Both the position numbers and the translations under genes were made by a program. A stretch of DNA of 64,000 nt from the NCBI GenBank assembly GCA_018902385.1, contig JABSSW010000032.1, forward strand, positions 482,509-546,508, in the 5' to 3' direction. This document shows positions 10,722 to 64,000 of the stretch, piece by piece. Every line of letters begins with the position of its first letter. Position 1 is the first letter of the stretch. The DNA comes from Physcia stellaris (lineage: Eukaryota > Ascomycota > Lecanoromycetes > Caliciales > Physciaceae). The notes beneath the pieces are model-generated. The model worked only from the letters and a program-made list of their open reading frames with translations. It was not told the DNA's origin and searched no databases.

Positions 10722-10730
10722 TTATCAGAT
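10722..10730 (-). promoter_or_regulatory. SreA-type GATA site upstream of sidA
   Basis: TTATCAGAT is the reverse complement of ATCTGATAA, a perfect consensus match, 738 bp upstream of the sidA ATG. Confidence 0.6.
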
Positions 10731-32715: not shown

Positions 32716-33084
32716 AATTGAAGGAGGGCAAATGCGGAGAGCAGGAGAGTCTCTTGTGAATGGGACGAGAGACTTCCGCTCCCAAGTACAATTAGAAAAG
32801 ATTACCATAGCAGCATTACGTAATACTCCGATCTTCTTATTACAGAAACGCAGATCTATCACCTGCGACCGAAGCCAGTAGTATCGAGCTTCTTTTCAAG
32901 GATATCTACTGTGAACATGTCATTCGCAACCTAATAACAATGCAGCAGCTCAACCAAAGATCATCGACTAACATGCTAATAACTTATTATTAGACAGACA
33001 CCCCCCAGCATGTGGTGCAATATCGATCTTCCTTCGAACAAGCTGTCATGCTCTGGTCTACCGCCGCTGAAGTGCACGAATAGC
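32716..33084. other. Spacer after the ribonuclease gene
   Basis: 369 bp with no supported feature beyond flanking untranslated sequence. Confidence 0.4.
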
Positions 33085-40964: not shown

Positions 40965-41522
40965 TCAGTCGGTATCGGGTGGAGAACAGAGCCTATTCAA
41001 AATAGCGAGAATACGATCTTGGGCATCCATTCTATCCATATACTCTTCCATGCTCATCCTGTCGTGAGGCATATAGGTGTCTCCTGCCGTCTTGGCGTGA
41101 CGCTGAACAAATGCTTTCTCTTCTGGACTGAGGATATCCGGATCCTGTTGTACTCTTTGCTCGATGAATGCGATTGCCCTGTTACACACTCTGTCTCTTT
41201 CTTTGAGCTGGTGCAATTTCCACATCCCCCAAAGAATAAATATAGTCAATTCTCCATAGAAGATGACACGAAGAACACCACTGAGATCGGAAATATCAAA
41301 GTATCTCTTGAGCCTACGAGGTAGTGGATCGGTGGAAGCGAAGGCTCGCGATTGGAGATGGGTAGCATGAATGCGATGTCGTCGTTCTCTACTTCCCGCA
41401 GAGGATATGGTTGAAACTGCGCCGTCCGCGCGACGAGGCAGAGAGTGATGATGGCTTTGCAATATCCGAGATTTGAGACTGTGCCTGAGGACTGGGAGCT
41501 GCTTGAAGTGAATACGCAACAT
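40965..41522 (-). CDS. Predicted mitochondrial single-helix membrane protein, function unknown
   Basis: 185 residues in one exon. The first 75 residues are rich in Arg, Ser and His and nearly free of acidic residues, as in mitochondrial targeting sequences. One strong hydrophobic helix (VLRVIFYGELTIFILWGMW, about residues 82-100) is followed by a charged, mostly helical C-terminal half containing DPDILSPEEKAFVQRHA and SMEEYMDRMDAQDRILAIL. I do not recognise the family. The layout suggests an inner-membrane protein with a soluble tail. Confidence 0.65.
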   Translation of the reverse strand: MLRIHFKQLPVLRHSLKSRILQSHHHSLPRRADGAVSTISSAGSRERRHRIHATHLQSRAFASTDPLPRRLKRYFDISDLSGVLRVIFYGELTIFILWGMWKLHQLKERDRVCNRAIAFIEQRVQQDPDILSPEEKAFVQRHAKTAGDTYMPHDRMSMEEYMDRMDAQDRILAILNRLCSPPDTD

Positions 41523-42082
41523 CCTTCTGCGGTGTCCAAGATGTCAGAACCAGAGATGCCGGGGTTTGATTCTTTGTCAGGGAGAGATCCCTTGCATGAA
41601 TCATGTCGCGCCTTTACCATGCAAGGGCTGCAAATACTGACATCACCAGAATATCTGAATTCTAGGCTAATATTGACGCAGTCGCCGGACATGGAAATTT
41701 CCTTTTCTGGTTGACACGTAGACCAACGATTGAGTGGTCTTAGGTGTAGGATAAGGCTTCGTAATCCCCAGATTGGCTATTGGGACCAAGAACCGCCTTA
41801 CCCGAGATGGGCTCACGCGATGTGAAATACACATAATGGAGGATTTCTCATTCAGCCGTCTTTTCAACATAAAATCATGGATATTGATATCGATAGATGC
41901 TATTGATGAATTTTGTTTGCCATTATTGAAAGATGATCATCACTTGCTAGGGCCCTTGCGAAAATGAGGCTACCCAAAGAAGTACCAAAAGCGACGCAAA
42001 ATGCCTCAGTCGCTTTCAAAGACTTAAATGAAACGGCTCTAACGACGTAAAGCTCTAATGCTCTACTAAGAAGATAGCTTAT
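41523..42082. other. Intergenic spacer
   Basis: 560 bp with only shadow ORFs. Nothing supported. Confidence 0.4.
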
Positions 42083-42877
42083 CTACTGTCGCCTTCGATC
42101 ATATTTTTCCCTCGAGTTTTCGCTACATAGAACATCCGCCGCCCAGCCAACCCTCTTCGCCCGTTCGTCGATTGCGTCCAGGTCTGCCGGAGTAAGACCT
42201 CCCGCTCTCTTCAGCCGGTCTGGATGCACCTTGATACGCATAGCCCTTGCCGCGATCGCAATCTCATCCTGCGAGGCTCCGTATTTAACACCAAGAGTCT
42301 CGTAGTGATTCGGTTGTCGTTCGGGAACCTCTGGCACCTTGAGCTTCGACTCCGCGTCTTCTTTGGGCGTTTGTCCTGCACGTTGATCAGCCTTTGGCTC
42401 AGGCTTGCTGTAGCTAGAACTCTGCGGGTTTAAGTGTGCATCGATGTGGTCCAGGTACGTTGCCCGGTTGTACGTTTGCGCGCACCATGGGCATTTTCCT
42501 TCCTCTAGTATTCGCTCATCATGGAGCGGTGAGTCTGGTCGCCCCTCTGTTGGATGGTATTCTGCCATGTGGGCGTCCAACTGCCCGTTGATGATGGTGG
42601 CATCACAGAGAGAACATGGGAAAGGTCGGTGGGCTCTCCGGTAATGGAAGAAAAGTGGCATGGGATGTGAGTATTCCCTGGAGTCATTGGGACAGTGAGG
42701 GCATTGATGGTTGTTGACGCACCAGAAGGTGTGCTCCCTGCCTCGGGAAACACTTTCGAAGACTGTTTTGCAGCGAGTGCAAGTGCAGTCTTGCTCGATT
42801 TTGGCTCTTCTGGCCTTCATGGTCATTGGCTTTCTGTTTTCCTTCAACCAAGTTTGGGTCCGCTCGCTTAAAGGCAT
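42083..42877 (-). CDS. C2H2 zinc-finger protein with a C-terminal J domain
   Basis: 264 residues in one exon. Residues about 31-60 hold CTRC...HTFWC...HQCPHCP, about 90-115 hold FPCSLCDATI...HMAEYH, and about 133-152 hold CPWCAQTY...HIDAHL: three irregular C2H2-type zinc sites. After a charged linker (about 155-190) comes a J domain, HYETLGVKYGASQDEI through the HPD tripeptide in KVHPDRLK to NSREKYDRRRQ at the extreme C-terminus. J domains stimulate Hsp70 ATPase. Putting zinc fingers before a C-terminal J domain recalls ribosome- or RNA-linked co-chaperones, but a specific role cannot be assigned. Confidence 0.85.
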   Translation of the reverse strand: MPLSERTQTWLKENRKPMTMKARRAKIEQDCTCTRCKTVFESVSRGREHTFWCVNNHQCPHCPNDSREYSHPMPLFFHYRRAHRPFPCSLCDATIINGQLDAHMAEYHPTEGRPDSPLHDERILEEGKCPWCAQTYNRATYLDHIDAHLNPQSSSYSKPEPKADQRAGQTPKEDAESKLKVPEVPERQPNHYETLGVKYGASQDEIAIAARAMRIKVHPDRLKRAGGLTPADLDAIDERAKRVGWAADVLCSENSREKYDRRRQ

Positions 42878-43487
42878 TTTTGGTTTGGGATTGAAATACT
42901 CAGATCGGATTGGAGACTATTGGGCAAATGGGATCCCGCTTGGGTTGGTTTTGTTGCCGAGTTATGATCTGGGCAAGTCAATGTTCGTTCACTGCAACTA
43001 TACAGCAGTGAAACAGCTAGGCAGGTAGAAGTGATATTTAGTATACGAGTTATAATCTAATCAACTCAGTGCTCATTCAGTGGGACGATGCAGCAGTGAG
43101 GTAGCTAGGTAGGTATCATTGATATAGAGCAATCCGGAGTCTTGGGGATGTGTGAAAAACTCAATTTTCTTTGTTGAGTGCCAGGATGAGGAGATAGCTT
43201 TCAAGTTCTCTAGTCAACAAGTATTCGTTGAGTGAGCTCTTGAGTCATACTGAACGCCACAAACCTAAAGCACTCTCTCCGACCAAACCATGTCGCAATC
43301 CCCATCTAAAGTATTCGATATAGTCAAAAAGAGACAAATCCGTGCAAGGATCGTACCGAATACTGGCTCGACGACGATCGCTTTACTTCCACTTCACAGA
43401 AGTAATAAAACACGAGTAAAGTAACCGTTGTAGTTGTCAAAGAATCGGATTGTGTTGCTCGCCGCTTCCGATCGAATTACGAAATTA
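42878..43487. other. Intergenic spacer
   Basis: 610 bp with no gene. Two imperfect copies of a GCAGTGA...GCTAGG.AGGTA segment lie near 43,003-43,030 and 43,090-43,116. Confidence 0.4.
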
Positions 43488-44431
43488 TCACGGCAGATTC
43501 TTATACTTTCCCAACATGGGCCTGATCTCATCTGAAATCTGGCCTAACTCTTTATTAGTGACAGTAACATTGGATCTCTCGTATCCTTCCTTGAAAGGGA
43601 TCCGTTCCTCGCCTATTGACCGTGTCAGCATCAGTAATGCTTGAAAACCACCAACAACGTTTTCAACTCACGGAATAATATTTGCACGTATTCCGTCCTC
43701 GTCTCCTTATATAGGCCCTGCATAGCCTTAAGGTACAGCCCCGCCTCCCCCAGAGTTGAAAAAAGGCTGGGCGTGAACTTTGGATTGGTGGCGTAACCGA
43801 CATCCAAGCGGTCCCTGATCACCCTGGCGACGGTTGGGAGGGATATGGTCTTGTTGAGAAAGTGCGCCGCCGTCTTATCCCACATCGTCTTGTTGAAGCT
43901 GCGATTGTCGCCAAAGTACAGGTCGTTGCGGCTGAGGCTGCCGTCGTGCTCGCCCGGAACTGAGAGGGAACCCATGCGTTAGCTTTGTGACCAGGCTGTA
44001 GCATTACGAGCGAGAATAGAGGAACATGACGATCAGCTCACTAGAATGATGATCAAGGTCATTGAGGTTTAGCGTATTGTTGTTTCCCGTCGTCGTGAAG
44101 GGCTGATACACTTGCACGGCGAAGATCGCAACGTCCGGCCCGAAGTTATATCCTTCTCCCACGCCAGTGATGAACTGTTCCAAGGAGATATTCAAACCAT
44201 TGCGAGGGAGGTAGCCATGGTTGGCGAGGGCATTGATACCCGGACATGGACTGCGACCTAAGCAAACCGTAAGCTGTCTGTAATGAATTTTGTAAGTGAG
44301 ACATCGGTCTTACGGTCTGTGGACAGTGGGTGATGCCATCGATGTCCCTCTGGTTCATGCCATCGGTGGCCATCTGGGTAACAAATGGCAAGCGTTGCAA
44401 GTAAAAGAGAGAGACTGATTGGGGCAAGCAT
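43488..44431 (-). CDS. Secreted heme-thiolate peroxidase / short unspecific peroxygenase
   Basis: Four exons on the minus strand: 44431-44314, 44257-44042, 43959-43672 and 43612-43488 (introns 56, 82 and 59 bp), phase kept, 248 residues. A signal peptide (MLAPISLSLLLATLAICY) precedes a His/Trp-rich stretch. The heme-ligand motif SPCPGINALANHG has its Cys at about residue 44, and the catalytic block GEHDGSLSRND (Glu about 115) is assembled across intron 2. Both are diagnostic of the chloroperoxidase/UPO superfamily; the size and EHD form fit the short group. Such enzymes use H2O2 to oxygenate or halogenate organic substrates outside the cell. The galactose oxidase further left is an H2O2 source, though a functional link is speculative. 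Unspliced frames hide this gene as three small ORFs. Confidence 0.93.
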
Positions 44432-44521
44432 GACGAGCTTTGTTTCTTAGAGTTGTATTGAATTTCAATCGACCCTGCTGTACTTGAATTGGACGTCAAT
44501 GTCTGTTTGCAAAGCTTCTCA

Positions 44522-45334
44522 GGGTAGGAATACTCCAGCGGCTTTATAGTCAGAGTCCAACCAACAATAGGGATCTGGACTATCAGTATTTGAAATTGTA
44601 TCGTAGGGATGAGAAGCAGCGGTGTCCATGATTTGAATGGCTTTCCCCATCAATGGATTCAGATTCGACAATGTATAAGCCCACTGTTGGGGCTGTGGTA
44701 CGAGTCTGAGGTGAGATGGTAGTCTATTGGCTGTTGAGAATTGGCTCCAGAGACTTGGCGAATTAGGCATCTGTGAGCCACTAAAGTTCATGAGCCAACT
44801 CAGCGTTTTAGCTACCTTCGGCAACGCCCTCTTTACTAAGCGAGTGCGAAAGCGAGTGCGAAAGCGGGTGCGAAATGCGAGTGCACACGAGAACTCCTGG
44901 ATTGCTCTGATAGGTTGGGCTGAATTTGTTGTCCTCATGGGGTTTGTGATATGCTAGACAGGGGTGCCGCTGCAGAGAAAGCGTAAAACCCAAAAGCAAT
45001 GCTCGGGCCTCATGCTCTTCACATTGCAGGCATCTGCCCAAACCTTTCAATTCTTCCTTTTTCGTCCTTCATTAATTCAGAAATTTCGTTTCGCACTCAC
45101 AACCTCCGGAGAAGTTGTTTTCTCATAGTCCGGCCACTTAGGTGGGGAAGTTAGCGAGGGATGCCACTGATCAGCAGAGCCATATTGGTGTTTTCTTGGG
45201 TAGACGGTGCTCTCTGGCCTGGCCAACCACCAGAGTCTCTTGAACATACCGAAGCCTCCAGGGGCATTGGCTTGTGTGCTACTGAATTCCGTGGAGCACT
45301 TCTGGGCGTCTGGGTCTTTCTCCCTTTTCATCAC
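44522..45334 (-). CDS. Possible small multi-exon gene, unidentified
   Basis: A minus-strand ORF at 45334-45077 contains MFKRLWWLARPESTVYPRKHQYGS and a good donor-like GTGAGT after PEVV. A second ORF at 44938-44519 ends DPYCWLDSDYKAAGVFLP. They could be exons of one gene upstream of the peroxygenase, but I could not fix the splice sites or recognise a family. Confidence 0.25.
44840..44875. repeat. 12-bp tandem repeat, three copies
   Basis: GCGAGTGCGAAA is repeated at 44840-44851 and 44852-44863, with a one-base variant at 44864-44875. Confidence 0.9.
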
Positions 45335-45624
45335 CTTATGATTTCTTCATGTAATGCGGCCCTTACAGAAAGCAGTCACTTTATGTCAATCGACCAATCT
45401 GTTTCCGGCTAGCACTATGCCTGTTGCGTCTCAAGTATAATGCGAACTGAGGGTCGACCGTCGATGCAATATGTAAAGCTTTGTAGATTATTTCGTCATG
45501 TGACTTTGCATGGTAAAGCTACTAACAGAGACTCGAGGTTGAAATTGTCAAAGAAAAATGAGATGAAAATCAACTCACAAACGTAGAAATGTGGGGATAA
45601 TAGACTCGGAAAGACCTCATTTAC

Positions 45625-47049
45625 TCAACATTTCTCCCAGAACATCCAATCCTTCGCACTCAAACCACGCAACTCTCCATCGCTTCCCAGATAACCTTGT
45701 CTATCAAACTTTAAACACTCCAGTGATTTTTCTCTCGCGAGAGCTTTTCCAATCTCTGCCCACGTTCCTCCCTGCAAGTAGACACCCAAAATATTTAATG
45801 TCTTCAGGCTTGGCTGATTGTGCATCAACAGACTAAGTAATGCACCACTATCGACGTACATATTCTCCATAATGACGTCTGTGAGATAGAGCAAAGGAGG
45901 TACTCGGAAGCCCACCAGGGAAGGCATGAGATCAGTTATCCGGTATGAAAAGGGGCAGGTAAGCTCTAAGAAACCAAGCTTGCCGGTGTAGCTTCGCAGC
46001 CTACCAAGATCTTCAGCAAGCGATGAGGACTTGGATGAAGGAGGAGAGTCGTCATGGGCGAAGATGATTTCGAGGGTTTCCAATTGGAGATCCAATCGGA
46101 CGTTACTGGGTGGTGGTCGCTTGCACTCATTGAGAGGCCAAGAGCCTGGCATCGATGTTTCTATCGGTGGTTGATGGAAAAGAGGTGTATCAGGGCAAAG
46201 ATTTGAAAGTAGAACCTCAAGATCCGAGCTGTCAACCAATTCTAACCGCAAGATCTTCAGTCGTCTCCCCCGGCTACCGGCTAGGTATCTGCCAAGTCCA
46301 AAACTCATGTCCTTTGCGATGGTCCCCACGATTGGAATATCCCTCGGTACGGAATAGCTCACCTTCAACTCCACCAAATTCTCGAGTCTGTCTAATGCAG
46401 TCAGAAAGACGGAGCTATGAAGGGCGGAGGTTCGTGCAAGTGGCCCAAACAACCATTGCATGCGACTTCTGAAAGTGTATGAGAGTCTCCCATAATCTGG
46501 GTATAAGAAGTGTTGCTGCTCGTCCCAATGGGCTTTGACACGCTGGCGCATCTCATGTTCAGCCTTGAGCTCACTATAGCGAGGCTCTGGACCACAGAGG
46601 CGATCGAGATCGCCATAGTACTCCCATATGCTAGATTTGATGACTACGCATAGCATAAATAAGCCAGACTCTTTGTCAAGCAGCTCGAGAACGAGATTAA
46701 CCATATCGATGAGTGACTTACTGGACGCGATATGCACTATTTCTGGCTTTAGCGTGTAACTCATCACTGCCGGAGGAATGAAGGTAGACCTCATTAAACA
46801 AGCCAACCGTCTTGAATTCCTGACGTCAATTCGGGTTACGAGGATGTTCGAGAAGAAAAAAGACGTTATCTTTGCGGCAAGAAATCTGCACGTTTGGCGT
46901 AATCGAAGCAGACGCGTTTTTGATCCTTCATTCAATCCCAGATGATATGCTCCAAATACGTGTATCTCGGGCTCTGGAGATTTTCGCCATTCTGCCGCGA
47001 TTATGTCGACAATGATCAAAAAAATGTCGTTGTTTAAGGTAGACGGCAT
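45625..47049 (-). CDS. F-box-like protein, function unknown
   Basis: 474 residues in one exon. The N-terminus (MPSTLNNDIFLIIVDIIA, then LLRLRQTCRFLAAKITSFFFSNI) has the Leu/Pro-start and L.L..TC..L pattern of fungal F-box-like domains, which recruit SCF ubiquitin ligases. The rest has scattered Leu-rich segments (LKILRLELVDSSDLEVLL, LKTLNILGVYL, LECLKFDRQGY) like irregular leucine-rich repeats. The usual first Pro of the F-box is not clear. It is the last host gene before the AT-rich block, about 0.8 kb from its edge. Confidence 0.7.
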   Translation of the reverse strand: MPSTLNNDIFLIIVDIIAAEWRKSPEPEIHVFGAYHLGLNEGSKTRLLRLRQTCRFLAAKITSFFFSNILVTRIDVRNSRRLACLMRSTFIPPAVMSYTLKPEIVHIASSKSLIDMVNLVLELLDKESGLFMLCVVIKSSIWEYYGDLDRLCGPEPRYSELKAEHEMRQRVKAHWDEQQHFLYPDYGRLSYTFRSRMQWLFGPLARTSALHSSVFLTALDRLENLVELKVSYSVPRDIPIVGTIAKDMSFGLGRYLAGSRGRRLKILRLELVDSSDLEVLLSNLCPDTPLFHQPPIETSMPGSWPLNECKRPPPSNVRLDLQLETLEIIFAHDDSPPSSKSSSLAEDLGRLRSYTGKLGFLELTCPFSYRITDLMPSLVGFRVPPLLYLTDVIMENMYVDSGALLSLLMHNQPSLKTLNILGVYLQGGTWAEIGKALAREKSLECLKFDRQGYLGSDGELRGLSAKDWMFWEKC

Positions 47050-47849: not shown

Positions 47850-48704
47850 GAAACGAAAAACCTGATCAGATTATATCTCAGCGAGTCAAAAACTTTCGAG
47901 ATTTTGTCAATTTCGTGAAAAAGTGTACTTTTTCTTGTCGAAAAACGATCGATGAAACGTGAAAAAAAAAAACTTGATTCGAACGATGATTTGTACTCGC
48001 ATAAATTTCATCTGAAATCTTACAAACGATAAAGACATAAATCAATTCGTCGACTGATAACATAATTTTTAGATATTATTTCAACAATGCGATTGACAAA
48101 CGTTAACTTTGTGAAAATAACTACAAATTTTTATGAAAATGAATATATAAACTGATTCTTTTGTCGAAAATTTACGATTACGCGAAAAATTTAATACATC
48201 GACGCGTCGAATGAGATGAAAACAATAACATTTTTAAATTTACGAAATTTTTTTTTGTTTCATGAATTGATTAACGATCAACTGTGTTGATCGATTCATT
48301 GTTGCGTTTTTATTTAATAACATTAATGTTTTGAACTTTTCAACAAACATCGAATTTATTTCAAAGTTTCTCAACGTTTGATTCAATTTTAGTTTTTCTA
48401 AAAATAAAACGATTAGATTGAAAACGTTTTTCGTTATCATTTCGCGAATCGCGTCTTGCAGAAATACTCGATCGTAACTTTATATTGTTATTTCATGAAC
48501 TAGTAATAAATGATATTAATTCTTAAAATACATCGACGTATTTACGATTATCGACTTAAAACGAAATCAGAAAATGATGTTTTCATGTCATTTTCATGTC
48601 GTTTTCACGTCGTATTCATATGTTTTGTGTCAAACACGAATAAATGTTTTATCATGTTAAATGTATCGATTGCGATGCATGAAAAAAAATAACATCACAT
48701 CAAA

Positions 48705-49253
48705 TCATGAAATATTCATTGTTTCGAACATTGTATTTTTAAAAACATTTGTATTTGTTGTTTGATTGTCGCGAGCAAAAACTGTTGAATAAATTGACGC
48801 ACGCGAATTCATCAAAATATAATCGTTTACGTTGAATTCAAAATCGCGTTGTTTTTTCGATTCGTTGAATTCGACATTCGTGAACAAATGATTGTGAAAT
48901 ATTTCGTCATATCGAGCATCGAATTGTTTCGCGTTTGAAAACGTAAACGTCAAATCAAAAATTTTCAACGATTTTTTCTCATTGATAGTTTAAATTTCTT
49001 TGCGTCGCATAAAGATTTCGATATTTGAATGTTCGTGCAAATAATCGATTTTTGAAATCATGTTTAATTCGATCAATACATTTGATAATTCAAATTCATT
49101 TCGAAAACGAACGAAAAAATTCAGAAAAACGTTTGTCGCACAGTAATTATTTAATGTGACAATTTCGACAATGTCAAAAATGAAACATGTCATCAAAAAA
49201 AATCGATTTGTTTGTTTCGATTTTGATGACGCATTGTATTGTGCAAATTTCAC
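48705..49253 (-). mobile_element. Possible Ty3/Gypsy integrase C-terminal remnant
   Basis: Two adjacent minus-strand pieces show AQYNASS and VNDYILMNSR, which recall the YN-S and VGD-V-L motifs at the end of Gypsy integrases. The similarity is faint and the copy is broken and old. Confidence 0.3.
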
Positions 49254-52200
49254 GTTTTTTGAATTTTGAATCGATCATGTAATGTCAATTCTCGCGAAAC
49301 ATGTTGAATCATAAAAATTCGTTGAAAAATATAACAATCTGTATAACGTCATCAATCGACATTTAAACAATTTCAATAACGAATTCAACATCAACAAAAT
49401 TTCGAACATCGTTATATATTAATTTCAAAATCGCGTTTTGTTTTCGCAAATCATGCACAAAAATTCTGATTGCAAATTTGTTTAAATCGAATCGATCGAA
49501 AAAAAAAACACATTATTTGTGTTTTTCGAATTATCATTCATTTTGATAAGATTCGATCAAGATTATCAAAATAATTTATCATAAAATAGCATTTTTTGAC
49601 ATGCAAAAATGTTTCGTATTTGTTGCAAATTATTTTTATTGAAATGTTAACGTTTTCGAAAAACACGACAATTTTATTTTTATGATTGTTGTTTGCAAAA
49701 TATCGCAAAACTTTGAACGATTCGAATAACAAACAAGAATTAACAATTTCATTTCGAAAAAGTTGCATGTTTTCGATTAATAAATTCTGTCACAAACGAT
49801 GATGAATAAATTCGTTAAAGAAAAAAAAATTGTTGAAATCGAAAATTTGAAAAAAAAACATTACGATTAAAAATGATTATATCGAAATTGTCGAAATCAA
49901 TAATGTCATTTGTCGATTTCGACAAAACGATCGAACTCGACGCATATTTCGAAATTTGCATGTAACATGTCATCAATTAAAAAATCAAAATCGATATCAA
50001 TTTTCTTATTCGAAATTGCGAAAAACGTTGAATTTTGTAATTTGAAAATGAAAACTGAATTCAAATCGTTTTTTTTCGTCAAGAAGATTTTTTTTTTTTT
50101 ATTGTCAACAATGACGAAACTTTGCAAAACATGAATGAATATTTCATAATTTCATTTCAATCAAATTATAAATTTTTGTTTTCATTTGTTAAACAATTTG
50201 AATGATCGCGATTTCAAAATTTTCAACGATCGAATGAATTGAAACAAAACGTAATATTTGTTGATCATCGTTTAACGATGTCTAAATACGCGCAAATGTG
50301 TCGATTTCGTTACAATTATTAAATCATTCATTTCGCAAAAAACATTTGAGAAATATAAAATTCATTACGATATTATTTATATCATGATATGATTTGCATT
50401 TTCGTCAATATTGCATTATTCAAATATCAAATATTTCGTTCACAAACATACGTTTTCATTTTTTAAAAATTATATTTCACATCGATTATTCACATCATCG
50501 AAATGACAAAATGTTGAAATTTTATCGTGAATTAATCAATAAAACGAAATAAAATGTCAATTTCGATTTTTCGAAAAACATTTCACTCAATTTGACGAGA
50601 ACGAATTAAGTCGAAATAAAAATATCGAAAATTTTCTGATTTGAATTAAAAAATTGAAAATCAAATGCGACGTGACGCAATGTGAAATTCGAAAAATATG
50701 CAATGCAATTTTTGTACGAATATCAAATTTGCAACATAACGTCAATTTGATCATTTGAACATTGATAATGAAAAACGCTTTTATAAATGAACACGACATT
50801 GTGACGAGATTTTAACGTTTGATTATGCATATTTTTTTTTTCGATCATTTTTTTTCGTTTTCGAAAAATTGCATGATGAATGTTTCACAACTTTTGCAAT
50901 TTTTGATCGTTGACGTGTATCAACAAATGTCAATCGTTAACAATTTATATTTGATTATGATTTCAACGTTTATATTTTAAAACAACGAAAAAATTTACAA
51001 AAATTCAAACGACTCAATAGAAATTGAAATAATATTGTTCAATTTTGAAAAATCGAATTGTTTTTTCAATGCATTTTTTTAAATTTCGATGCATTTTTTT
51101 TACAAAAATTTCATCGACTTGAAAATAATAAATGAAAATTCATTTTTTCTTGAAATTATTTATGATATTAATTCTTAATATTATTGCAAACGATAAAAAA
51201 TTCTGATTCACAATTCGCGTAAAATGTATTTTTCAATATTTACGACGCAAATTGTCATAACAAATGTTTTATCAATGTTTTCATCGATAATTGTAACATT
51301 ACGAATTGAAATTCGTCGTTATTCGAAAATTCGAATCGATGTTGATGATTACATCATATTTGCAATTTTGACAAATTTTTCACAATTTTTTTAAACGCGA
51401 AGAAAATTGATTTATCACAATTCGCGCTTTATGAATTTACAATTTTTGTGATTTTCGTTGTCATTGCAAAAAACTTGAATGATTTTGAACGTAACATTTT
51501 CATTCGTTCGATCGAAATTGCAAATTTCGCAAAGATATTGTAAATTTTCAACATCGAAAATCGTTAATTTTCACGAATTGAATTAGTTTATATGAACAGA
51601 ATCAATTGTCGCGACGACAATTATAATTTTGATCAAATTATCAACATTAATGTTTTATCAGCGCATTTTTATCATTTCAAAATTTCGACTAGTTTGTAAT
51701 ATCATGATCGATTTGACAGCAAATTGATTTTTCGTTTTCGTATTTGTCAATATAAATTTTGTTTTCAATTTTTTCTTAGACAATTGACAATATTAATTAA
51801 CGAACATAAAACACAAATATTTTTTTCTAAGTCAATGTTTCAAAATTAAACGAAATCGAATCACAATATCATAAATGAATTTGTTTTTCTATTTTCGATG
51901 AACGCGATCAATATGATGTTTGATATTGTGATTGTATGTTTTTTCTTGTTTGTGATTAGAATTTTTTATATGTTTTTCAAACGAAAATGATCGATCGCAA
52001 ATATATTTGCGTTTGAATTTACGTGAATATTTTTTTACAAAATTGCGCAAACATTTCAAATTTTATTGTTGATTATTTCGAGTCTTGAAAAAATGCGTCG
52101 TTTTTTCGATAATAAAATTATATTATTTTGTTTTTTTTTTCAAAACGTTCAACAATTTTGATACATTATTCATCGACGATACAAATTTAATAATGATTTG

Positions 52201-53939
52201 AAATTACATCGAGAAATGTATTTTTCTGATAATCGCATGTCTATTCACGCTTGTTTCGTTATTAAGAAAAAATCGTGATTTGAATTTACATCGCGTAATT
52301 TCGTTGTTTTTTGTTCGTGACAGTTCGCACAAACGTTTGCGATTAAATAAAACAAAAAATACAAACGACAACAGTTTGAAATACAAAAACGTCAAAACGA
52401 CTTGACAGAAATTACACTCGAATGATGAACACATTACAGAAATCGCTCGAAACAACGATGTCGTTTTGATCAACGCGAATTCGAAATTCGCAAATATTAT
52501 CAACGTTCAATCGAGTGTGAAATTGAATGTTATGATAATTTAAATCATAATGACTTAAATCATGATAATTTAAAAACATCAAGTTTAAATATTTGAAAGA
52601 TTATGCAAATTTTATTCGCAAACGTCAAGAAATATATACGTTGACAAATATCAAATTATTGATTATGATGTAACAAACAAAAATTGCAAAAACGATAACA
52701 TAAACAATTAAAATTTTGAAAATGCATTTATCAAAAATTCATTATAATTTTTACGATAATTTGATTTTCTTGTCATTATTATTAATTTTCTGAATTCTGT
52801 TTTGATTTCTGTGCAAAATTTTGTTTTTAAATTTAAATTTGAATTTGTTTGCTGAAAACATGATTCGAAATTATGCAATATGCGTCTTTATGTAATTTCT
52901 AGAAAACGAACATATCATATTGCTAAATGAATTCAGATTGAAATGATTTTCGTCGAATTTAAAAGTTTTCGACATTTCAAAAAATTATTCAATTTTTTCG
53001 ATTATTCAATCATATCAAACGCAATTTTCAAGATAAAATCATAATTTCGTTTATGAAAATGTTTCTTTACATTTGATTCACAATTTAAATTTAATTATAA
53101 TATACGATACAATCAACAACAAAAGATATTTCATTGCGCAATATTGAAATATTCAAAATTCATTCAAATGATGATTTTTCGAATTTTCAAATTAACAAAA
53201 ATAAATAATAATTGATTGCAATTATTACATAATGCGATCAATTCGAAATTCGATTTTTTCGTTGATACGTAATTTAAATTTTTAGATTTTGTTTTAAAAA
53301 TTTAATTTACATATCAGCGAAATTGATTATTTTTTTATTGATTTCATGCTTTGTTTATGTTTACATTTTTGTATTTTTTCAAGACGCGTTATTCACAAAT
53401 TCAACATCAATTGAATTGTTTTTTGACATTATCAATCATAAAATAATTTCATTTCAAAACAATGAATGATAATTTTCTATACATTGTTTTACACATTCAG
53501 AAAATCATGTCAGCAATTTTTCATTACATTTAATATCAATTACAACATAATATTAAATCACAACATAACAAAATATGAAATACATCGTCGAACAATACAG
53601 CAAATTTCTAATATAACAACAATATTATTTCAATGAAATATTCAGTTTTATTTGATCAAAAATCATTTTAATTATATTACACAATAAACGATATTGATTT
53701 TGTTTTTTTGATTATCGATTTTGTTTAAAATTTCATTAAATCGTTTCAACAAAACGTCATTTTCGAACATATCAAAATTATCATTCAAAAAATCAAATGA
53801 TGCGATTATTATCAAAAGTTTTATCACAATCACATCGAATGTATCATCAAGCATTTTCATCTTGTCATTGTCAAATAAATTTGAAAAAACAAACAAAAAA
53901 AACGACGCAAACATAAAAATCAATAATATAATAATGATT

Positions 53940-53975
53940 AAAATCAAAATCAAAATCAAAATCAAAATCAAAATT
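53940..53975. repeat. (AAAATC)n hexanucleotide repeat
   Basis: Five exact AAAATC units plus one imperfect unit inside the AT-rich block. It explains the Ile/Leu- or Lys/Ile-repetitive ORFs on the two strands here. Confidence 0.9.
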
Positions 53976-54819
53976 AAACGAAAAAAAACAAAAACAAAAA
54001 AAACAACAAAAATAAAACGAAATTTGACAAAGATTTTTGAAAATCGATAAACGAAACGATAATTACGCATTCGATTTTCGTCGAAATTGTTGTTTTTTTG
54101 AAATCAATCAATTTTGACAAATTTATTGTCGTCAAAGTTTTTTTTTTCATTTTTGTCATTATCAAAATTTTAAATTTCAACATTGTTTGATTGTTCGATA
54201 CGAACGTTTTTTTTCACATGATTAATAATCGTTGATTTTTCATCAATTATATTGTCATTTTCGATATTTCAATTGAAAACATAAAAAAAAAATTCAAATT
54301 TTTCGATTACAATATTGTGCGATTTTTTTGCGACATTTTCAACAGAAATCGTTATTTATTTATTCATCAAATGTTTTATATTTCAAATTGTATTTATAAT
54401 TTTTTTTTTTCAATTTCAACAAAACGATTGTTTTTTATTTATTATTTTTAACGATTTCGCAATGAACAACAAAAACATTCGTGTTTTGAAATAACAAAAT
54501 TTTTACATTTTTCAATTCGACAAATTCGTGATTTGTCTAATTGTCAATTAAAACATGTTGAAAATATGACACGAACGATTGAATCATTTGAATATTCAAA
54601 ATATTATTCAAATAATTTATTAATATGATATTGATTTTTTTAAATCATCATCATCGAATTCGTGCATTTTTTGCGAAAAAATCAATGATAAAACGAAATT
54701 TTATCGAAAATTTATCAAATCAAAACGTCACGTCGACGATTTTATTCACGATAATTTGATGAATTTCTTTTCAAAAAAACAAAATAATGTTTATTGAATA
54801 ATGATTTGAATTGACGATT

Positions 54820-55180
54820 TCATTCAAATGTTTCACGTAAACATTTTATATGACAAAACATTTTTCGAAATTTTGATTTCATTCAAGAAATTTCTAAATA
54901 TTAATGAACACGATTATTTTCGTTGCATTCGTTTACAAATTGACAACAATGATGAATTTTTTGAAAATATTTTTACGATTTATCGAGAAAAACGCGACAT
55001 CATAATGAAATTTTTTATTGTTAAAAATTTTCAAATGAACGAATGCGTTGAACGTTTTAATTAAATTATCATGCGCAAAATCAACACATTTTTGAAAAAT
55101 TCAAAATTATTCATAAAATGATGATTCGAATTTGTTAATGTTGTCAATCACATTCGTAACGTTTTTATTTTCATTTTCGT
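54820..55180 (+). mobile_element. Ty1/Copia integrase remnant
   Basis: The plus strand shows the Copia integrase core pattern: IRLQIDNNDEFF (D-x-E side) followed by MNECVERFN (the usual QNG-ER-N region) at the expected distance, with a faint continuation that resembles the sequence after the core. It belongs to an old, broken copy. The nested LTR element is inserted some 250 bp downstream. Confidence 0.6.
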
Positions 55181-55423
55181 AATCGACGACAACGACAAAT
55201 CAATATTTTTTTATCAAAAGTTTATCGATCATGTTTATTTTATCGAAAAATTTCGTCGTATTTGTTACGAACATGTTTGACAAATAGATTTGACAAATAA
55301 ATAATTGATATAATATGTGATCGAGCAATGAATTATGCTTTAATTTTACGTTGAAATTAACGTGATTTGAAATTTAACGTCGCACATTGTTTGCAATTTC
55401 AACATTTTATATCTATTTGTTTT

Positions 55424-55619
55424 TATTGAAAGAATCATGAGTGACTATCATTCTATTGTTCTGAATCTCGTTATTCTAATAACATACATGAAGTGAAAAC
55501 ACAAAAAATGTGCGAATGTCAAGACGCTAATCTCAACAAGAACGCACTAGTTTTTTTTTCGTCAAATTATATCAATTGATTTCTTGATTATTTTTTTGCG
55601 AAGACTGTATTTCTCAACA
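55424..55619 (-). repeat. 3' LTR of the nested element
   Basis: 196 bp, direct repeat of 58508-58703. On the minus strand it begins TGTTGAGAA and ends TTCAATA. It carries most of the C-to-T/G-to-A type differences between the pair. Confidence 0.9.
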
Positions 55620-56893
55620 CTTTTTCACAGCATTCGTCTGTGTTTTCTGCTCAATATTTTAACGAGTTCAGTCTAAAACTTTCGTGCAAACTTTTTCAGC
55701 GATGTGATTTTTTCAGCGATGCGCATTTTACAGCTTTCATGCAAGTTTTTTCAGAACGAGCTTCTTCAACGATGTATTGTTTGAAGTTTTCGAGCAAACT
55801 CTTTCGATGACGTAGATTTTGACGAACTAAATCATACATCGATGCGAATGCTGCAGAAACGAACGAATCGAAATTCGATGTGTTTCAAATATGACGTAAA
55901 ATCGAATTGTAAGACGTGCGATCGAATATCTGAAGAATTGCGACGTTTTGAATGTCTCGACGAGATGAAGCATCGATGTGAAATCTGATATCTAGAATTG
56001 ATTAAAAGATACATCATGAAGCAAATATCAATTGTTTGAGTTTTGCGATGACGAACGAGAATGCGAATCACATCATGTAGCATCATTGTGAATTTCAAAA
56101 TTCTCAAATACTTTTTGCGACATCAATGATCGAATATCTATGCGATTTGACTGTAGAAAATTCATAAATTATGTCAACGACGTGAAACAAACGTCGAGAA
56201 ATCGATAAAAAAAAAAGTGAATCGAATGCGTGACATACATCGATGCAAAAAATGCAGATTCGAGCTTTTTTGATTTGATTAAGATCTGTCAGAGAATCAG
56301 ATCGATTAATATGCGAAAAGATCAAATATTTTCAGCACTATTTGTTTTTTTTGATCGAGTTCTTGCTTTTTTTTTGATCGAATTTCTGCTTTGCAAAATC
56401 GAGTTATGTAATGATTGCATAGTACGCTTTTTCGAAACGATACTATGTGATTTCATAGTCGTATCTGTACAGTACGCTTTTTCGAAGCTGTATTGTTCAC
56501 AATTGTTCTCGTTCATTTTAGCGATTGTACTCGCTTTTTCTTTTTCGTATTTATCGGACGACTGAAGTCTCAAGAGTAGTAGAAAATAGAGACGAGATTA
56601 GTCGTGTTAGATCAAGACGAAACAACAAAGATAAATTTTTACTCATTAGTGAAACAATAAAACAAAGCATACAACAACTTTTGACTTTTTCAGGCCGAAA
56701 AGAGACGAGAGGAACGAAACATCGAATTCATTAAAACAACAACTTTTATGTTTCTTCAGGTCATGATCGATCAACGGTTAACAGGAAGGAAGGAACGAGC
56801 AAAACAACAAACAAACAACATGCTAACTTTCTCAAAGTAATGATTCCGAGAAGGTCAATACTTTCTCAAAGTAGGGTGGGGAGGAGCAAAATT

Positions 56894-58099
56894 TCAATAG
56901 CGCTGCCTCATGGGTATCTCATTGTTCCCAACTCTGGAGGCATTTGGCGTGGCCCAGCCAGTAGGCCAATGGGTGGCAAAACGCCCTTGACAATGCCTGC
57001 AAACAGGAGGAGAGCGCGAGAATGCCGAGAAAGAGGTGCGCATCGAAGGAGAAGAAAATCGGGAGGTCCGCGAAGGTGATCTGCGGCCCGACTGTTTGAC
57101 CGGTGCATGCACTGCTGGAAATGCTTCGAATTTGGCCGATTTGGAAGCAGGTAAGGCCACCGCATTAAAGTATGACGTAATGCGCGTTTGTATGGGGCCA
57201 GATTTGCAATTGCTTCTAGGACTGCATTTGCCAGGGCCGCGCGGAGACAGCGGCTTGTTATGACGTGGCTGCAGGCCAAATGGACTCGGCTTCCCAGCGA
57301 ACATGCGGGACAGGTCGTCCACAGTGAGATAGGGCCTCGATGGTGTAGGCGTTCGAGGCGGAGTAGGCGGGCAAGCAATGCTTGCATTCTCCAAGGATTT
57401 GCACACCGATTTGGGTGTCGCAATCGGGAGACGAGAGGATTTCGGCGCAACAGGCCGTGAGGCTATTTCTGCCCAAGATATCGGCTTCCTTGGTGTTGCA
57501 ACCGACGAGGGATCTGGTGATACGCTCTCTGAACGCTCGCGTACAATTTCTGGTGCGGGCATCGAGAGAGGTAGGACTTTCGGTGACGTTGGCGGTGACG
57601 AGGGAGGTGAGGAGGTTACCGATCGAGGCGGTGAAACAAGCGGAGTAGGAGGTGAGGCCACATGCTCAACAGACTGCTGAGCAGGCTTCGGCTTCTTCGC
57701 GTGCCGAGTGCGAATATGTTCGTGTAGCTTGGTGTTGCTGTCGAATTTGGCCGAGTGCTTGCAACGCCTGCACGTATATCCCTCTGCTCGCTTCTGAGCT
57801 ATTCGGGCCTCCTCTTTCTGTTTTGCCAACTCCTTTGCTTCTTGCTTGAGTTTGCTCTTGACCTCCGACTCATGCTTTCGTAAAAGATAGCTCTCTTGTG
57901 CCCTCTTCGCTTGAACGAACCAAGAGCATTTCTGACTTGTTTGACCCTGTTGATGCTGCTCGTACAAACATCGAAGATCCTGCGTTATTGACTCATTCGC
58001 GGATATGTCATTGACTGAAATGCAGGTGCAAAGAAGAGGTGACCAAGGAAGGAAAGCGGGCGGCGATTCGGAGGTGATCGCAGGAGTAGGAGTCGTCAT
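56894..58099 (-). CDS. Element-borne ORF with a C2H2-type zinc finger
   Basis: A 401-codon open frame lies inside the nested LTR element in the element's own sense orientation, starting about 410 bp after the 5' LTR. It has a Lys/Glu-rich helical segment (KLKQEAKELAKQKEEARIAQ), one C2H2-type finger (CRRCKHSAKFDSNTKLHEH...H), a long Ser/Pro-rich linker and a basic C-terminus. It may be a Gag-like protein with an atypical finger or a captured host gene. It has normal base composition, unlike the neighbouring AT-rich DNA. I recall similar ORFs as repeated families in fungal genomes but cannot confirm this here. Confidence 0.6.
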   Translation of the reverse strand: MTTPTPAITSESPPAFLPWSPLLCTCISVNDISANESITQDLRCLYEQHQQGQTSQKCSWFVQAKRAQESYLLRKHESEVKSKLKQEAKELAKQKEEARIAQKRAEGYTCRRCKHSAKFDSNTKLHEHIRTRHAKKPKPAQQSVEHVASPPTPLVSPPRSVTSSPPSSPPTSPKVLPLSMPAPEIVRERSESVSPDPSSVATPRKPISWAEIASRPVAPKSSRLPIATPKSVCKSLENASIACPPTPPRTPTPSRPYLTVDDLSRMFAGKPSPFGLQPRHNKPLSPRGPGKCSPRSNCKSGPIQTRITSYFNAVALPASKSAKFEAFPAVHAPVKQSGRRSPSRTSRFSSPSMRTSFSAFSRSPPVCRHCQGRFATHWPTGWATPNASRVGNNEIPMRQRY

Positions 58100-58507
58100 T
58101 CTGACTGAGTGAGTAATAGATAGATTTCGCGTAGAGGTTCGAGTAGGTATACGCGAGTTCGTCGAGGATTCGTAAGGGGGTTCGGTAGATAGGCGAATTC
58201 GTAAGGGACTCGCGAAGGGTATGTAGGTAGGTCGAAAGCTGACTGTTTCGAAGGGCTCGTAGGGGTGTTACCGATGTAACTGAGGTCGTACTGAATGTAC
58301 TGATCGTGTGTACCAAGGTACTGAGTATTGCTCGATGCAATTAGGCCGTTCTGGTCTGGCTAGACTGGATACTCCCAATGGAGTTGGTTACTGCTGGAGT
58401 ACTGCAAACCGATTGCTGTACTGCCCGACGGCTAGGTACTACGTGCTCATGACGTGCTGTAGCTGGTACTAGATGTAGCGAAAGCTGCTAACCCGGTTCT
58501 CATAACC

Positions 58508-58703
58508 TATTGAAAGAATCATGGATGACTACCATTCTATTGCTCTGAATCTCGTTATTCTAGTAACATACATGAAGTGAAAGCACAGAAAGTGTGCGAA
58601 TGCCAAGACGCTAATCTCAACAAAAACGCACTAATTCTTCTTTCGTCAAATTATATCAACTGACTTCTTGATTATCTTTCTGCGAAGGCTGTACTTCTCA
58701 ACA
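58508..58703 (-). repeat. 5' LTR of the nested element
   Basis: 196 bp, same length as the other LTR. By hand alignment the two differ at 19 positions, all transitions. Confidence 0.9.
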
Positions 58704-61700
58704 GTTTTTGCAAATTTATTGTTTTCGTTTAATTAATCAATAATACGTTTATTCAAACACGACTCATGATATTACAATAAATTTTCAATTTTATCGCTCG
58801 TCGTGATACGCGAGCGTTCAAAAATAAAATTTCAAATCGATCAAGCTTTTTTGACGAGACAAACGACGAAAAACTTTGCTGATCAAACAAACGATCAAAA
58901 GTTTTTCTGACGAGACATTTGACGAAAATCGTGAAATAACAAGTCGAATTTTCACGTAAACGACGATATTTTCGACGATAAAAAAAAATTGATTCGATTA
59001 ATTTTTTTTCTTTTATCATTTTTCAATTTTTCATTCTCAGTTATGACTCGAAATCATCACGAAACAACTTTTTTCGAATTTTCTATTTCGATGAAACAAC
59101 GTTTCAGAACGTTACGTTTCAATGTGAATCGTATGTTACAAAAAATGAATGACAATTTTTTCGACGAGAATTTCGTCGAACAATTCAAACGTCGTCGATC
59201 TGTTTCAACGATCGAATTCATAAAAATGAAAAATAACGAAATCATTCATTTTTTGAACATCGTTATCATCGATCAATTGAAATGATGAATCAATCAAAAA
59301 ATTATCGACTTTTTGAAAAAATTTGATCGATTACGCACTGATTGTGACAATTATTTGAACGTTTTGATTCAATATCAAAATCTGTACAATATCGTCAACG
59401 TCGATCGTGACGAGTTGATCAATACAAACGTTGAACTCGATGAAATTCGCAAAAAAATGAATACATTGAAAATTAATTACGAACAAACGCGTGATCGACT
59501 TTTAGTCAAACAACACGATTACATTTTTTTCAAAAAAAATCATGACGTTTTGCTAATCACGACTCGCGATCGTACACGAAATTCTGATGACGACGATGAA
59601 AACAACGACGACGAAATCAACGTAATTAATTTTTTCAATAAAAACAAACGACGTTCAAAAATTCATTCAAATTCTTTTAAATTTATCGACGAAATGAAAT
59701 TTATTTGACGTGTTTGAAAAACAAAAATGCATGATAAAATGACGATCAACGTCGATCATTACGACACGAACATGATCGCAATCATTATTGTGATTGATTG
59801 AATTGAAAATGATGTCGATAATCACATACAATCGATACGTGATATCGACATGAATTATTTCAAAAATTGACATATGATGTTGAAATTTCTGAATTTCATT
59901 TTCGAAAATTTTGATTTCAAACGCAATATGCGTATTCAATTTCGAACATTGATCATGAGTATTCAAAATTTTCAATTTTTTTATTTCATTTTTTTTCGTT
60001 TTAACAATTCAATCGACTATAACGAAATCATCAAAGTCGAAAAATTGATGAACAAGATTTTTTGAAATCTGAAAAAAACGATGAATGTATATTCACGTGA
60101 ATTCATCACGTTCGATGAAATTCGAATCACTTTGCAACAAATTTACAATCGACAATCGAATTTTCGAAAAGAGAAAATCGCGACACGTCAACAACGTTTT
60201 GAATTGTTTCAATTCAAATCAATTTTTGTCGTTTCGATTTCGATGTTTTTTACGAAATTTGTTATTTCGACTTTTTCGTGAAATTTGTCGCTCATTTTCA
60301 TTTCAACGTTGAAATCAAAATTCATGACTCGATGACAGACAAATTGATCGTCACGAGCAAATATTTCACATGCGATGAAATCGATCACGTATGAAAAATG
60401 TGCTCGAACGTTCACAAACATCAAAAGCGTCATTGACACAAAATGCAAATGTTTTACATGAACATGATCAGCGAATCGAGCGAATTTGACTCGAAAAACT
60501 GATAATTCACATCAAAAACGCGATTGATGAATGTTTAAAAATTTTCTTTATTCATCATAACGAATTGTTTGATTTCTTTGTCAAACGATTTCTAATCATC
60601 AATTGTACGTTGTCATTCAACGATAATAAACATAAATTAGAAATTTTAATAAACATTGATGCAATTGATTATGTTTTCATTGATAAAAAAATTGCGCAAT
60701 TTGTATGCAACATGTTGAACATGAATTTCGTATCTCTATTAAAATCGAAACTCATTATCGAATTCGACGATCGTCAAACTTTTTCAATAATTCATGTCAT
60801 TTATTTCAAGTTAACAATTGATTTGTATTTCGAGTTGACAATTTTTTTGTTCATCATCGATTTGAACAATCATTCGATAATTTTAAAAAAATCGTGAATA
60901 AACAAACATGAAATTATTCTGAATATGATTTACGATAAATTGATTTTCAAATCGTTCAAATGTAATCATCATGACAATATATTCATCAAAGCAATGCAAA
61001 TTCGACGTTTGAAAGTTTCTGATTCAAATCGTCGATAAAACGTATTTAGTTGACGTCGCGATGTTTTTTTATCGAAAACAAATAACGCGAAACATATTGT
61101 TGCAATAGAATTTCGATATACGATTCTATTTCGTTCACAAATTAGTTTCTCAGCGCTTTATGTACAGAACGAGTCAGACGTATTCGATTCAAAATGTTTC
61201 GATTGTTTTACTCATTCGAAAATCGATCAAAATGACGAGTCGTTCGTCGCAAAGTCAAATCACTCAGAAATTGATATCATAACGATTACGAAAACGACAT
61301 TCGTCAAAAAAAGAAACTTGAAAAGACAACGCAACAAACGTTGAAAAATCAAAAAATAACAATTCGAAATTTTTTCATTTTCAAAATTGAACTCAAACGA
61401 TTCGATGAATATCGCGATGATTGATACGATTTTTTTTTGTTTATTCGTCGATTTCAAAAATCGAAAACAAAAAATGCAATGTTTTTTCATTACGATCAAT
61501 CAAATCGATTTCGCATTCAAAACATTGCGAGCAAATTTTGAATCGTTGAAAATTGTCGTCATGATCAAGAAGATTCTAAAACACGAACAAATCAAATCGA
61601 TTTTTGAACGTATAATGAAAAAAATATCGAAATATTTCAAACATTTGTCAAAAGTATTCGATTTTCAAAAAACAATTGAATTGTCGTCGCATCGAATTTA

Positions 61701-64000
61701 CGATCACAAAATCGAATTTCTAAACGATAACAATACATTGTTTCGAAGTCGAATATATTTTTTGTTCGAATTCAAATTTCAAAAACTCAAAAAATACTTG
61801 AAAAATAATTTTCAAAAAAATTTCATCGTATTCAGTCAAACAACATACGTTTCGTTCGTTTTATTTGCGATCAAATCAAATGATCAATTACGTTTGTGTG
61901 TGAATTATCGACGACTTAATCATATCACGAAACGCAATCGAAATTTCATTTTTCTGATCGAAAAAATTTTAACTAGAGTGCAAAGTTGCAAATATTTAAT
62001 CAAATTGAATATCATATCGATTTTCAACAAATTTCGAATGAGTGAGAAGAGTGAGAAATTTATCACGTTCGTTATTTTCATGAAATCGTACAAATATCGA
62101 GTATTATTTTTCGAATTGATCAACGAATTCGCGAATTGATAACATTACATGAACGATTTGTTGTTCAATTTTCTAAACGATTTTTGTCAAATTTATTTAG
62201 ATGATATTTTCATTTACAGCAAATTCAAGAAAAAACATATCGTTCACGTTCGTAAAATGTTGAAAAGATTCAAGAAAGTCGACTTACAAATGAATATTGA
62301 AAAATGCGAATCTTTCAAAAAAGAAATGACATTTTTGAACGTTATATTATCGATAAATGATTTTCGCATGAATTCAAAAAAGATAAAAATCATTGTCAAC
62401 TGAAAACGTTTTACAAATTTGAAAAAAATGCAAATTTTCGTGAGTTTCGTCAATTTTTACAGACGATTCATTCGTGATTTTTCAAAAAAGATTCGAATTT
62501 TCATTCGAATGATCAAAAAGTTCGTGAGTTTCGAATGAATTGCTGAAATCGAAAAATTTTTCAATTTTTTTAAAAAAACGATGACGAAAATTTTCATATT
62601 ACGACATTACGATCGAATCAAACAAATCATTTTGAAAATTGATTTTTTTGATTACGTCAATGCAGAAATATTATTTCAATACGACGACGAAAAAGTTTTG
62701 TATTTCGTTGCTTTTTACAATCGCAACATGATTTCAATCGAATATAATTACGAAATTTACGACAAAAAATTGTTGATCATTATTCGTTGTTTAAAACATT
62801 GACGTTTTGAATTTGAAAACATTGAAAAATTTGTCAAAATTTTCATCGATCACAAAAGTTTGAAAATTTTCATGACGTCAAAGAAATTAATTTTTCGTCA
62901 AATTCGTTGAGCAGAAATTTTCTCGAAATTCAATATTGTCATTCAATTTCAATTCGAAACTCAGAACGTTAAAACAAATGTTTTGATTCGTATGTTTGAT
63001 TCACGATTCAAAAACGATATTGACGAGCGACATCAATATCGAAAGCAAATATTGTTTATTTCGAAACGACTCGAGATTCACGCGATAAAATTTGACGAAT
63101 TCATTTACGAACGAGTTTTCGCGATCAACAAATTGACGATAATTGCACGATTTATCGTGAAATCATCGAACAAAATCTCATTTCATTGAATGAAATTGAT
63201 TTACGAAATTGCATTGAAAAAAACGACGTTTTGTATCGAGAAAATCGATTATGAATGCTCGTCGATGCTTTTTTACTCGTTGATTTTCTCAGAAAAATTC
63301 ATGAATTCTTTGTTTCGAAACATTCAAACTTTAATCGCATGAAAAATCTTATACGTCGTGATTATTATTGACTCAACATGCGCAAAACGATTCGTCGATA
63401 CGTACGTAATTGTCATGAATGTCAACGCACGAAAATTTTCAAAAATCGCAAAAACGATTTGTTCATTTTTTTGATCATATTTTTGCAACGTTGAATCGAC
63501 ATATCAATAAATTTTATTATCGAATTGCTCGACGTTCACGATCATAACGTCATATGCACGATAATTGACAAATTTAATAAAAAACGTCATTACGTGTTTT
63601 GTATCGTCAACGACGAGAATATCAATGTTGAAATCACGATCAAAATACTCATCAATTACGTATTTCGTACACATGATTTATTTTTTTCATAACGTCAAAT
63701 CGAAATTCTCAGTTCATATCATTCGTTTGACAAGCATTTTGCAGAATTCTCGATATCAAATGTAAATTTTTCATCGCTTTTCATTCAAAAATCGATGAGC
63801 AAATCGAAAAAATCAATCAGAATATCGAGAAACAATTGCGACAATATTGCAATTACATGCAAAACGATTGAAATGTTTGATTGTTCATAATTGAATTTGC
63901 AAATAACAACGCGATATCGACAACAACAAATTTGTCATCATTTTTCGTCAACAAAAATTTTCATTTTCGTATGAATTTTTCATTAGATTTTACTTCGTAT
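58704..64000 (+). mobile_element. Ty3/Gypsy LTR retrotransposon copy, decayed, running off the right edge
   Basis: On the plus strand the parts follow Gypsy order: a gag-like region (about 59.04-60.3 kb), a protease-like region (about 60.57-60.9 kb), reverse transcriptase (about 61.4-62.4 kb, with LRLCVNYRRLN and the YLDD catalytic motif), RNase H (about 62.6-62.8 kb) and integrase (about 63.0-63.8 kb, with a CHECQRTK-like zinc-binding end). The first 340 bp may hold 5' LTR or leader; the matching end is outside the window. The copy is broken many times and shows the same CC/CT/GG/AG loss as the left AT-rich block. It is old relative to the nested element. Confidence 0.85.

Follow-up and report, generated by a model that had tools for sequence, protein, structure and literature searches.

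The DNA analysed here (the window) is a 64,000-nt stretch of contig JABSSW010000032.1 of the lichen fungus Physcia stellaris (Caliciales), in which genic DNA is followed by two AT-rich hypermutated blocks and a small long terminal repeat (LTR) element inserted between and partly within them (Table 1). The hypermutation is real and strong and works like repeat-induced point mutation (RIP), with a reversed context that fails the CpA index of RIP: transposon DNA is mutated from C to T on both strands, a 3' pyrimidine is needed, the order of preference is CpC > CpT >> CpA > CpG, and many transposon copies are mutated to completion at CpC. The genome searched comprised 43.97 Mb in 147 contigs; the published P. 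stellaris assembly is given as 46.57 Mb in 184 scaffolds (PMC7513301).

Table 1. Features of the window, in order of position (o/e, observed/expected; ORF, open reading frame)
Feature	Position	Strand	Remarks
Genic control DNA	1..47000		NCC and NCT trinucleotides o/e 0.85-1.19
Hypermutated AT-rich block	47863..56555		8,693 bp, GC 0.256, no CpC or GpG; the LTR element, inserted later, has its left part inside it
Segment 1 of the first-pass annotation	51241..51360	+	17 C, next base A or G in all
LTR element inserted in hypermutated DNA	55424..58709	- (strand of longest ORF)	3.29 kb; mutated in left part and at right end
Left LTR-like terminal repeat	55424..55625		CpC 0, CpT 19
401-aa ORF of the LTR element	56894..58099	-	remains rich in CpC; Pfam search without match at E<=0.001; C2H2-like motif by eye
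Right LTR-like terminal repeat	58508..58709		90% identical to left; CpC 4, CpT 28
Second hypermutated block	58689..64000		5,312 bp, GC 0.289, no CpC or GpG; reaches window end
Reverse transcriptase relic	61876..62346 (C32:544384-544854)	+	PF00078, E 2.9e-13; one internal TGA, one internal TAA
Segment 2 of the first-pass annotation	62401..62520	+	15 C, next base A or G in all

For the 14,005 bp of the two blocks, composition predicts 286 and 223 CpC+GpG (about 509), and the minimum in 200 shuffles of each block was 254 and 191; none was found. CpT+ApG is down to 420 across both blocks, with ACT, GCT and TCT at o/e 0.29-0.40, and CpA and CpG are undepleted, with ACA, GCA, TCA, ACG, GCG and TCG at o/e 1.16-4.59. 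The first-pass annotation, a reading of the letters alone, had described CpT and CpC as lost and CpA and CpG as kept over 47850..64000, on hand counts in two segments that proved exact (32 C, of which 16 before A, 16 before G and none before C or T; 34 G, none after G and four after A), as did its TpA/ApT of 9/20 and (CpA+TpG)/(ApC+GpT) of 16/13 for 51241-51360. The loss of CpC stands as described; CpT is reduced rather than gone, and CpA is changed at a low rate. The pattern extends through the whole of both blocks and is not uniform over that range, as 55424-58709 is the later insertion and 56556-58688, between the blocks, retains CpC.

The left edge is sharp, with 17-23 CpC in each of five 200-bp bins at 46.8-47.8 kb, then 1, then 0. 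To the left of it, the window genes (1-47000) show no CpY depletion, so the depletion in host genes that the annotation had named as speaking against its proposal is absent from this genic DNA. Among 632 stretches of 500 bp (from the window and 64 loci that overlap in places), CpC and CpT drop with GC, and CpA keeps a mean of 48-68 per 500 bp in every GC bin. By the standard RIP indices (TpA/ApT >=0.89 and (CpA+TpG)/(ApC+GpT) <=1.03), 0 of the 281 with GC <0.35 pass and 20-22% pass at GC 0.40-0.50, which bears out the expectation that such DNA would be scored 'not RIP'; the bins below GC 0.35 have TpA/ApT of 0.41-0.65, without the TpA excess and CpA depletion that would also have told against the proposal.

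No CpC has re-formed in the blocks, where 7,095 single changes could create one. This indicates that substitutions since the last clearing amount to less than ~0.13% per site (Jukes-Cantor). Old relics kept under continuing surveillance would fit this figure, but so would relics of recent origin, and the estimate does not decide between the two. Elsewhere in the genome, the initial 3 kb of the left block have matches of just ~130-235 bp at 72-79% identity (best 40 of 111 candidates). At 47378-47757, left of the block and not CpC-depleted, there are short repeats common to many genome places, up to ~330 bp at 68-82% with ~45-bp ends at 91-96%.

Mutation context in element copies, terminal repeats and relic proteins

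The terminal repeats of the LTR element are direct and 202 nt long, and the 19 transitions between the two LTRs of the window copy fall at 4 CpC, 15 CpT, 0 CpA and 0 CpG. Searching with the element gave at least 91 matches at at least 40 places including the window copy (best 40 of 342 candidates), one of which (L045) has five identical bases at both insertion junctions, and 30 loci were taken for copy comparison. These range from CpC-free to CpC-rich (0 to ~150 CpC per kb), and each mutated copy was compared with its nearest CpC-rich copy, a relative rather than an ancestor. In the four most mutated copies (L059, L061, L063 and L064), C had become T at 874/987 CpC (88.6%) and 572/988 CpT (57.9%), and at 67/999 CpA (6.7%) and 57/842 CpG (6.8%). 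The control, made up of 21 CpC-rich copies with 100 or more CpC per kb (some of them themselves mutated in part), each against its nearest, gave 425/4899 at CpC, 322/4640 at CpT, 178/4758 at CpA and 251/4277 at CpG (8.7, 6.9, 3.7 and 5.9%). The effect of the 5' base was small (ApC 0.453, CpC 0.448, GpC 0.389, TpC 0.364) against a CpN range of 0.07-0.89. In five copies with partial mutation the rate of change at CpC was ~1.4-2.9 times that at CpT, and both C-to-T and G-to-A transitions were found in repeats, i.e. both strands are affected.

Both LTRs of one insertion are identical at the start, and a recognisable pair was present in 28 of the 30 copies (exceptions L057 and L060). All 28 pairs together gave changes at 156/760 CpC, 178/1299 CpT, 39/1856 CpA and 10/628 CpG, and the ten pairs without a transversion gave 60/221, 102/425, 14/641 and 1/218, respectively; a hand-picked set of 13 pairs agrees, with NpC at 0.08-0.15 versus CpN at 0.02-0.34. 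One LTR of L050 lost 18/18 CpC and 22/26 CpT, and one of L055 lost 16/16 CpC and 26/29 CpT, with few changes at CpA (2-3) or CpG (0-1) and transversions absent, which indicates that mutation can come near completion before ordinary change builds up. Age alone does not account for the differences among copies, since the transversion-free insertions L050, L055 and L058 are partly mutated, and the CpC-rich L049 and L056 carry 8 and 9 LTR transversions.

The same pattern was found in other retrotransposons. An RVT_1 profile search gave at least 150 matches (best 150 of 527 candidates), of which the 30 best were taken as loci; 14 of these lack CpC, 23 have at most ~10 CpC per kb, and L030 has one CpY in 3,474 bp holding 919 C+G. 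In whichever orientation gives fewer stops, the 30 frames contain 49 TGA, 3 TAA and 1 TAG, and the CpC-poor ones contain no Gly, Pro or Trp, because CpC and GpG are absent. The predominance of TGA follows from TGG becoming TGA through GpG; RIP of the CpA type would instead give TAA and TAG from CAA and CAG. Less similar, older relics carry TAA besides TGA, up to 12 TAA in one. In a second retrotransposon family, which we take to be Ty3-like from its reverse transcriptase motifs, L019 and L032 gave the same ranking (CpC 269/329, CpT 251/408, CpA 86/414, CpG 48/380). Element copies, LTR pairs and this second family all support the C-to-T process directed by a 3' pyrimidine that the first-pass annotation had proposed. 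Many saturated retrotransposon relics (L011, L013, L022, L026, L029 and others) are 92-96% identical over ~3 kb, perhaps because mutation ends in the same state.

Relic proteins of this kind also occur in public data. The open relic stretch L016 (218 aa), itself without Gly and Pro and thus favouring such matches, gave 65 matches at 37-86% identity; Gly and Pro were both absent from 54 of them (32 clusters at 80% identity), and 61 had at most one such residue. P0199 has 19, and in its Pro columns the 787 residues of the other 64 rows comprise 4 Pro, 319 Ser and 227 Phe, as CpC-to-TpC and CpC-to-TpT changes predict. His was kept at 175/244, Cys at 55/65, Gln at 33/63 and Met at 58/200 positions over the 64 rows, and at 77/92, 22/23, 19/21 and 30/66 over the 24 closer rows, Met being mostly swapped for Ile and Leu. 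The retention of most His and Cys is unlike RIP of the CpA type, which is expected to destroy His, Gln, Cys and Met codons. Four of the 65 matches were searched in the genome, with best identities of 90% (P0195), 55% (P0219), 50% (P0243) and 45% (P0213), indicating that these four come from other genomes; the hosts of the public relic proteins are likely lichens. P0195, P0206, P0245, P0254 and others have several Trp yet no Gly or Pro, probably owing to gene calls that read the very frequent TGA as Trp. Other relics were sought in prokaryote genomes and viral contigs, where no locus was found.

Candidate enzymes and the weighing of explanations

The first-pass annotation favoured a RID- or DIM-2-like methyltransferase, and genes of both kinds are present in the genome, where four PF00145 matches were read as three genes. 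The DIM-2-like gene (L002) is a 1,001-aa ORF with PF00145 and DUF7893. The two RID-like paralogs, RID-A (L003/L004, contig C5) and RID-B (L001, contig C6), differ in motif VI, EQT in the former and EET in the latter; motifs I, IV, VI and VIII are conserved, and QIGNAVPP is found in P0001 and downstream in L001. RID and DIM-2 are presumed labels, of which that of RID rests on motifs and neighbours, not on Neurospora sequence. The gene on C5 matches P. stellaris G7Y79_00005g016670 at 98%. In a FastTree phylogeny of 67 catalytic domains sampled from the matches, long branches split the RID-A and RID-B groups, one RID-B match (P0154) falling on the RID-A side. In the public proteins searched, 29 relatives of RID-B reach 60% or more, including one from Heterodermia; all others lie at 48% at most, Aspergillus candidus and Talaromyces islandicus among them.

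Judged from these sequence comparisons, the repeats were probably mutated by a RIP-like defence in which a RID-family cytosine-5 methyltransferase prefers a 3' pyrimidine. Through a changed target-recognition surface this enzyme, for which RID-A or RID-B is the likeliest candidate, would convert the C of CpC and CpT within repeats, a step that probably belongs to the sexual cycle; with CpC removed, TGG would become TGA and the Pro and Gly codons would vanish, destroying the transposon proteins, and CAA and CAG would seldom be turned into stops. A more specific version can be put forward tentatively: the lichen fungi of this lineage might possess a mutator of reversed specificity built on the ancient second paralog RID-B, reading the 3' pyrimidine and saturating repeats in few rounds, with mutation also creeping in from silent flanks. 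Such a near-deterministic outcome would leave many mutated copies 92-96% alike over 3 kb, rather than randomised.

Several observations weigh against a uniform RIP-like process that spares CpA. The mutated loci are transposon-derived, yet many multi-copy elements escape: by eye, 16 of the 30 LTR copies are CpC-rich throughout, and nearly all of these adjoin CpC-free DNA on one or both sides, often with sharp ends; another four have almost no CpC, and the remainder are mixed. Duplication alone is thus not always a trigger, and the long duplication shared by L051 (C66) and L056 (C119), 95% alike over 5.1 kb, escaped mutation, both retaining the CpC-rich LTR element. Mutated tracts often lie on one end of an insertion (the window copy, L045, L050, L055 and L058 are mutated over one or both ends), a pattern not expected if repeats were recognised uniformly. 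Nor does CpA escape completely: in the more diverged L019/L032 pair (6% transversions) its rate of 0.21 exceeds that of T-to-C (~0.03-0.09), and five pairs of saturated relics (93.8-96.0% alike over ~3.0-3.4 kb) show 24-69 CpA, 4-28 CpG and 17-95 CpT differences with just 8-15 transversions, suggesting that CpA is changed slowly. Targeting may involve recognition of homology, spread from silent DNA or partial duplications.

The strongest rival is a DIM-2-type methyltransferase, by which heterochromatin-directed CpY methylation followed by deamination would spread from silent DNA into new insertions. We regard this as rather unlikely. The genome has the DIM-2-like gene described above, and several copies lying in CpC-free DNA have mutated tracts entering from one or both ends; in Neurospora, DIM-2 methylates with a CpT preference according to a review (PMC13297926), and the DIM-2/DIM-5 pathway acts on single-copy DNA flanked by repeats (PMC12543289). 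Against it, many insertions beside CpC-free DNA have sharp unmutated ends (by eye; for example L041, L042, L051, L053 and L054), for which simple spreading from silent flanks is not accepted as a full account; L040 has a mutated internal patch lying some 0.4-0.7 kb into its left part, and its right LTR is mutated too; and the completeness of mutation in transversion-free LTR pairs calls for a fast process.

An unrelated deaminase, APOBEC-like or of the fungal OTT_1508 type, acting on single-stranded repeats is improbable, even though the genome gave three OTT_1508_deam and eight dCMP_cyt_deam_1 matches. APOBEC-type enzymes read the 5' base, and the small effect of that base in copies (NpC 0.36-0.45 versus CpN 0.07-0.89) and in LTR pairs leads us to reject such editing, as the first-pass annotation had argued; that both strands are affected is a further point against a deaminase. 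One dCMP_cyt_deam_1 match (G000:C64:178666-179121, minus strand) has four internal TGA, which could reflect introns or a mutated copy. A sequencing or assembly artefact, from Nanopore miscalls of modified C or bisulfite-like conversion, is very improbable: the assembly was built from Nanopore reads but received two rounds of Illumina polishing (PMC7513301), CpC content within a single family runs from 0 to ~150 per kb, and relics devoid of Pro and Gly are also found in public data of independent origin. UV damage yields C-to-T changes at dipyrimidines, among them CpC and CpT, and would suit a sun-exposed lichen. It can practically be dismissed, because TpC, also a dipyrimidine, is retained (TCA 16/207 and TCG 29/337 changed in heavily mutated copies; control 38/994 and 70/1458) and the window genes are unaffected. 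CpG methylation-deamination decay is rejected as well, since the blocks have ACG, GCG and TCG at o/e 2.56-4.59 and CpG is changed at just 10/628 sites in LTR pairs.

Comparison with known systems

Measured against what defines RIP, the RIP-like hypermutation of P. stellaris shows C-to-T (G-to-A) transitions on both strands of repeats, falls on repeats (23 of the 30 RVT_1 loci are nearly or wholly CpC-free) and spares the genes at 1-47000 of the window, and is accompanied by two RID/Masc1-family paralogs; the CpA bias of the standard indices is absent. The usual test misses the damage because the Physcia preference reverses the described one. With an opposite ranking in the same kind of damage and an index that passes none of the AT-rich stretches, RIP-proficient species may have been missed. 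The natural pair of opposite specificities makes the choice of target C by RID-type enzymes testable, and the predicted protein fingerprint, in which Gly, Pro and Trp are missing and stops are TGA, offers a way of finding the pattern in metagenomes.

A survey from 2025, spanning 1,239 fungal genomes, concludes that a CpA preference is common to RIP-like defences (PMC12543289), its main text naming lecanoromycetes once and CpC and CpT never; CpA is also what the usual index is built to detect. No description of CpC-first, CpA-sparing RIP was found in the passages of the literature searched. Anisogramma, with two rid genes, is reported to mutate CpA and CpT (PMC10998396), and Monilinia shows CpC-to-TpT double changes alongside CpA (PMC8959702). 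Among lichen fungi, Endocarpon pusillum likewise has AT-rich repeats, but its indices of 1.47 and 0.70 are of the CpA type (PMC3897900); Cladonia rangiformis has AT-rich repeats with reported RID and DIM-2 homologues, in a section that gives no mutation context (PMC12542154). The CpG or TpCpG hypermutation of basidiomycetes is also RIP-like, C-to-T and non-CpA, but targets the CpG that is spared in Physcia (PMC4014442, PMC4352252). The transposable elements of Botrytis, Sclerotinia and Magnaporthe share with Physcia the CpT target and a RID/Masc1 gene, but there CpT comes with a CpA signature, and the relevant passages name no CpC signature (PMC4352252).

The closest comparison is with RIP itself. 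In Trichoderma reesei the dinucleotide preference is also shifted, CpA and CpG being about equal and followed by CpT, but CpC comes last there (PMC5496416, PMC10170752) and first in Physcia. The RID-dependent RIP of Neurospora crassa resembles the Physcia process in its C-to-T changes on both strands, its focus on transposons, the sparing of genes (for Physcia, in the window) and the presence of a RID-like gene; its preference is CpA > CpT > CpG > CpC (PMC5496416), unlike the CpC > CpT >> CpA > CpG of Physcia, in which CpC comes first rather than last.

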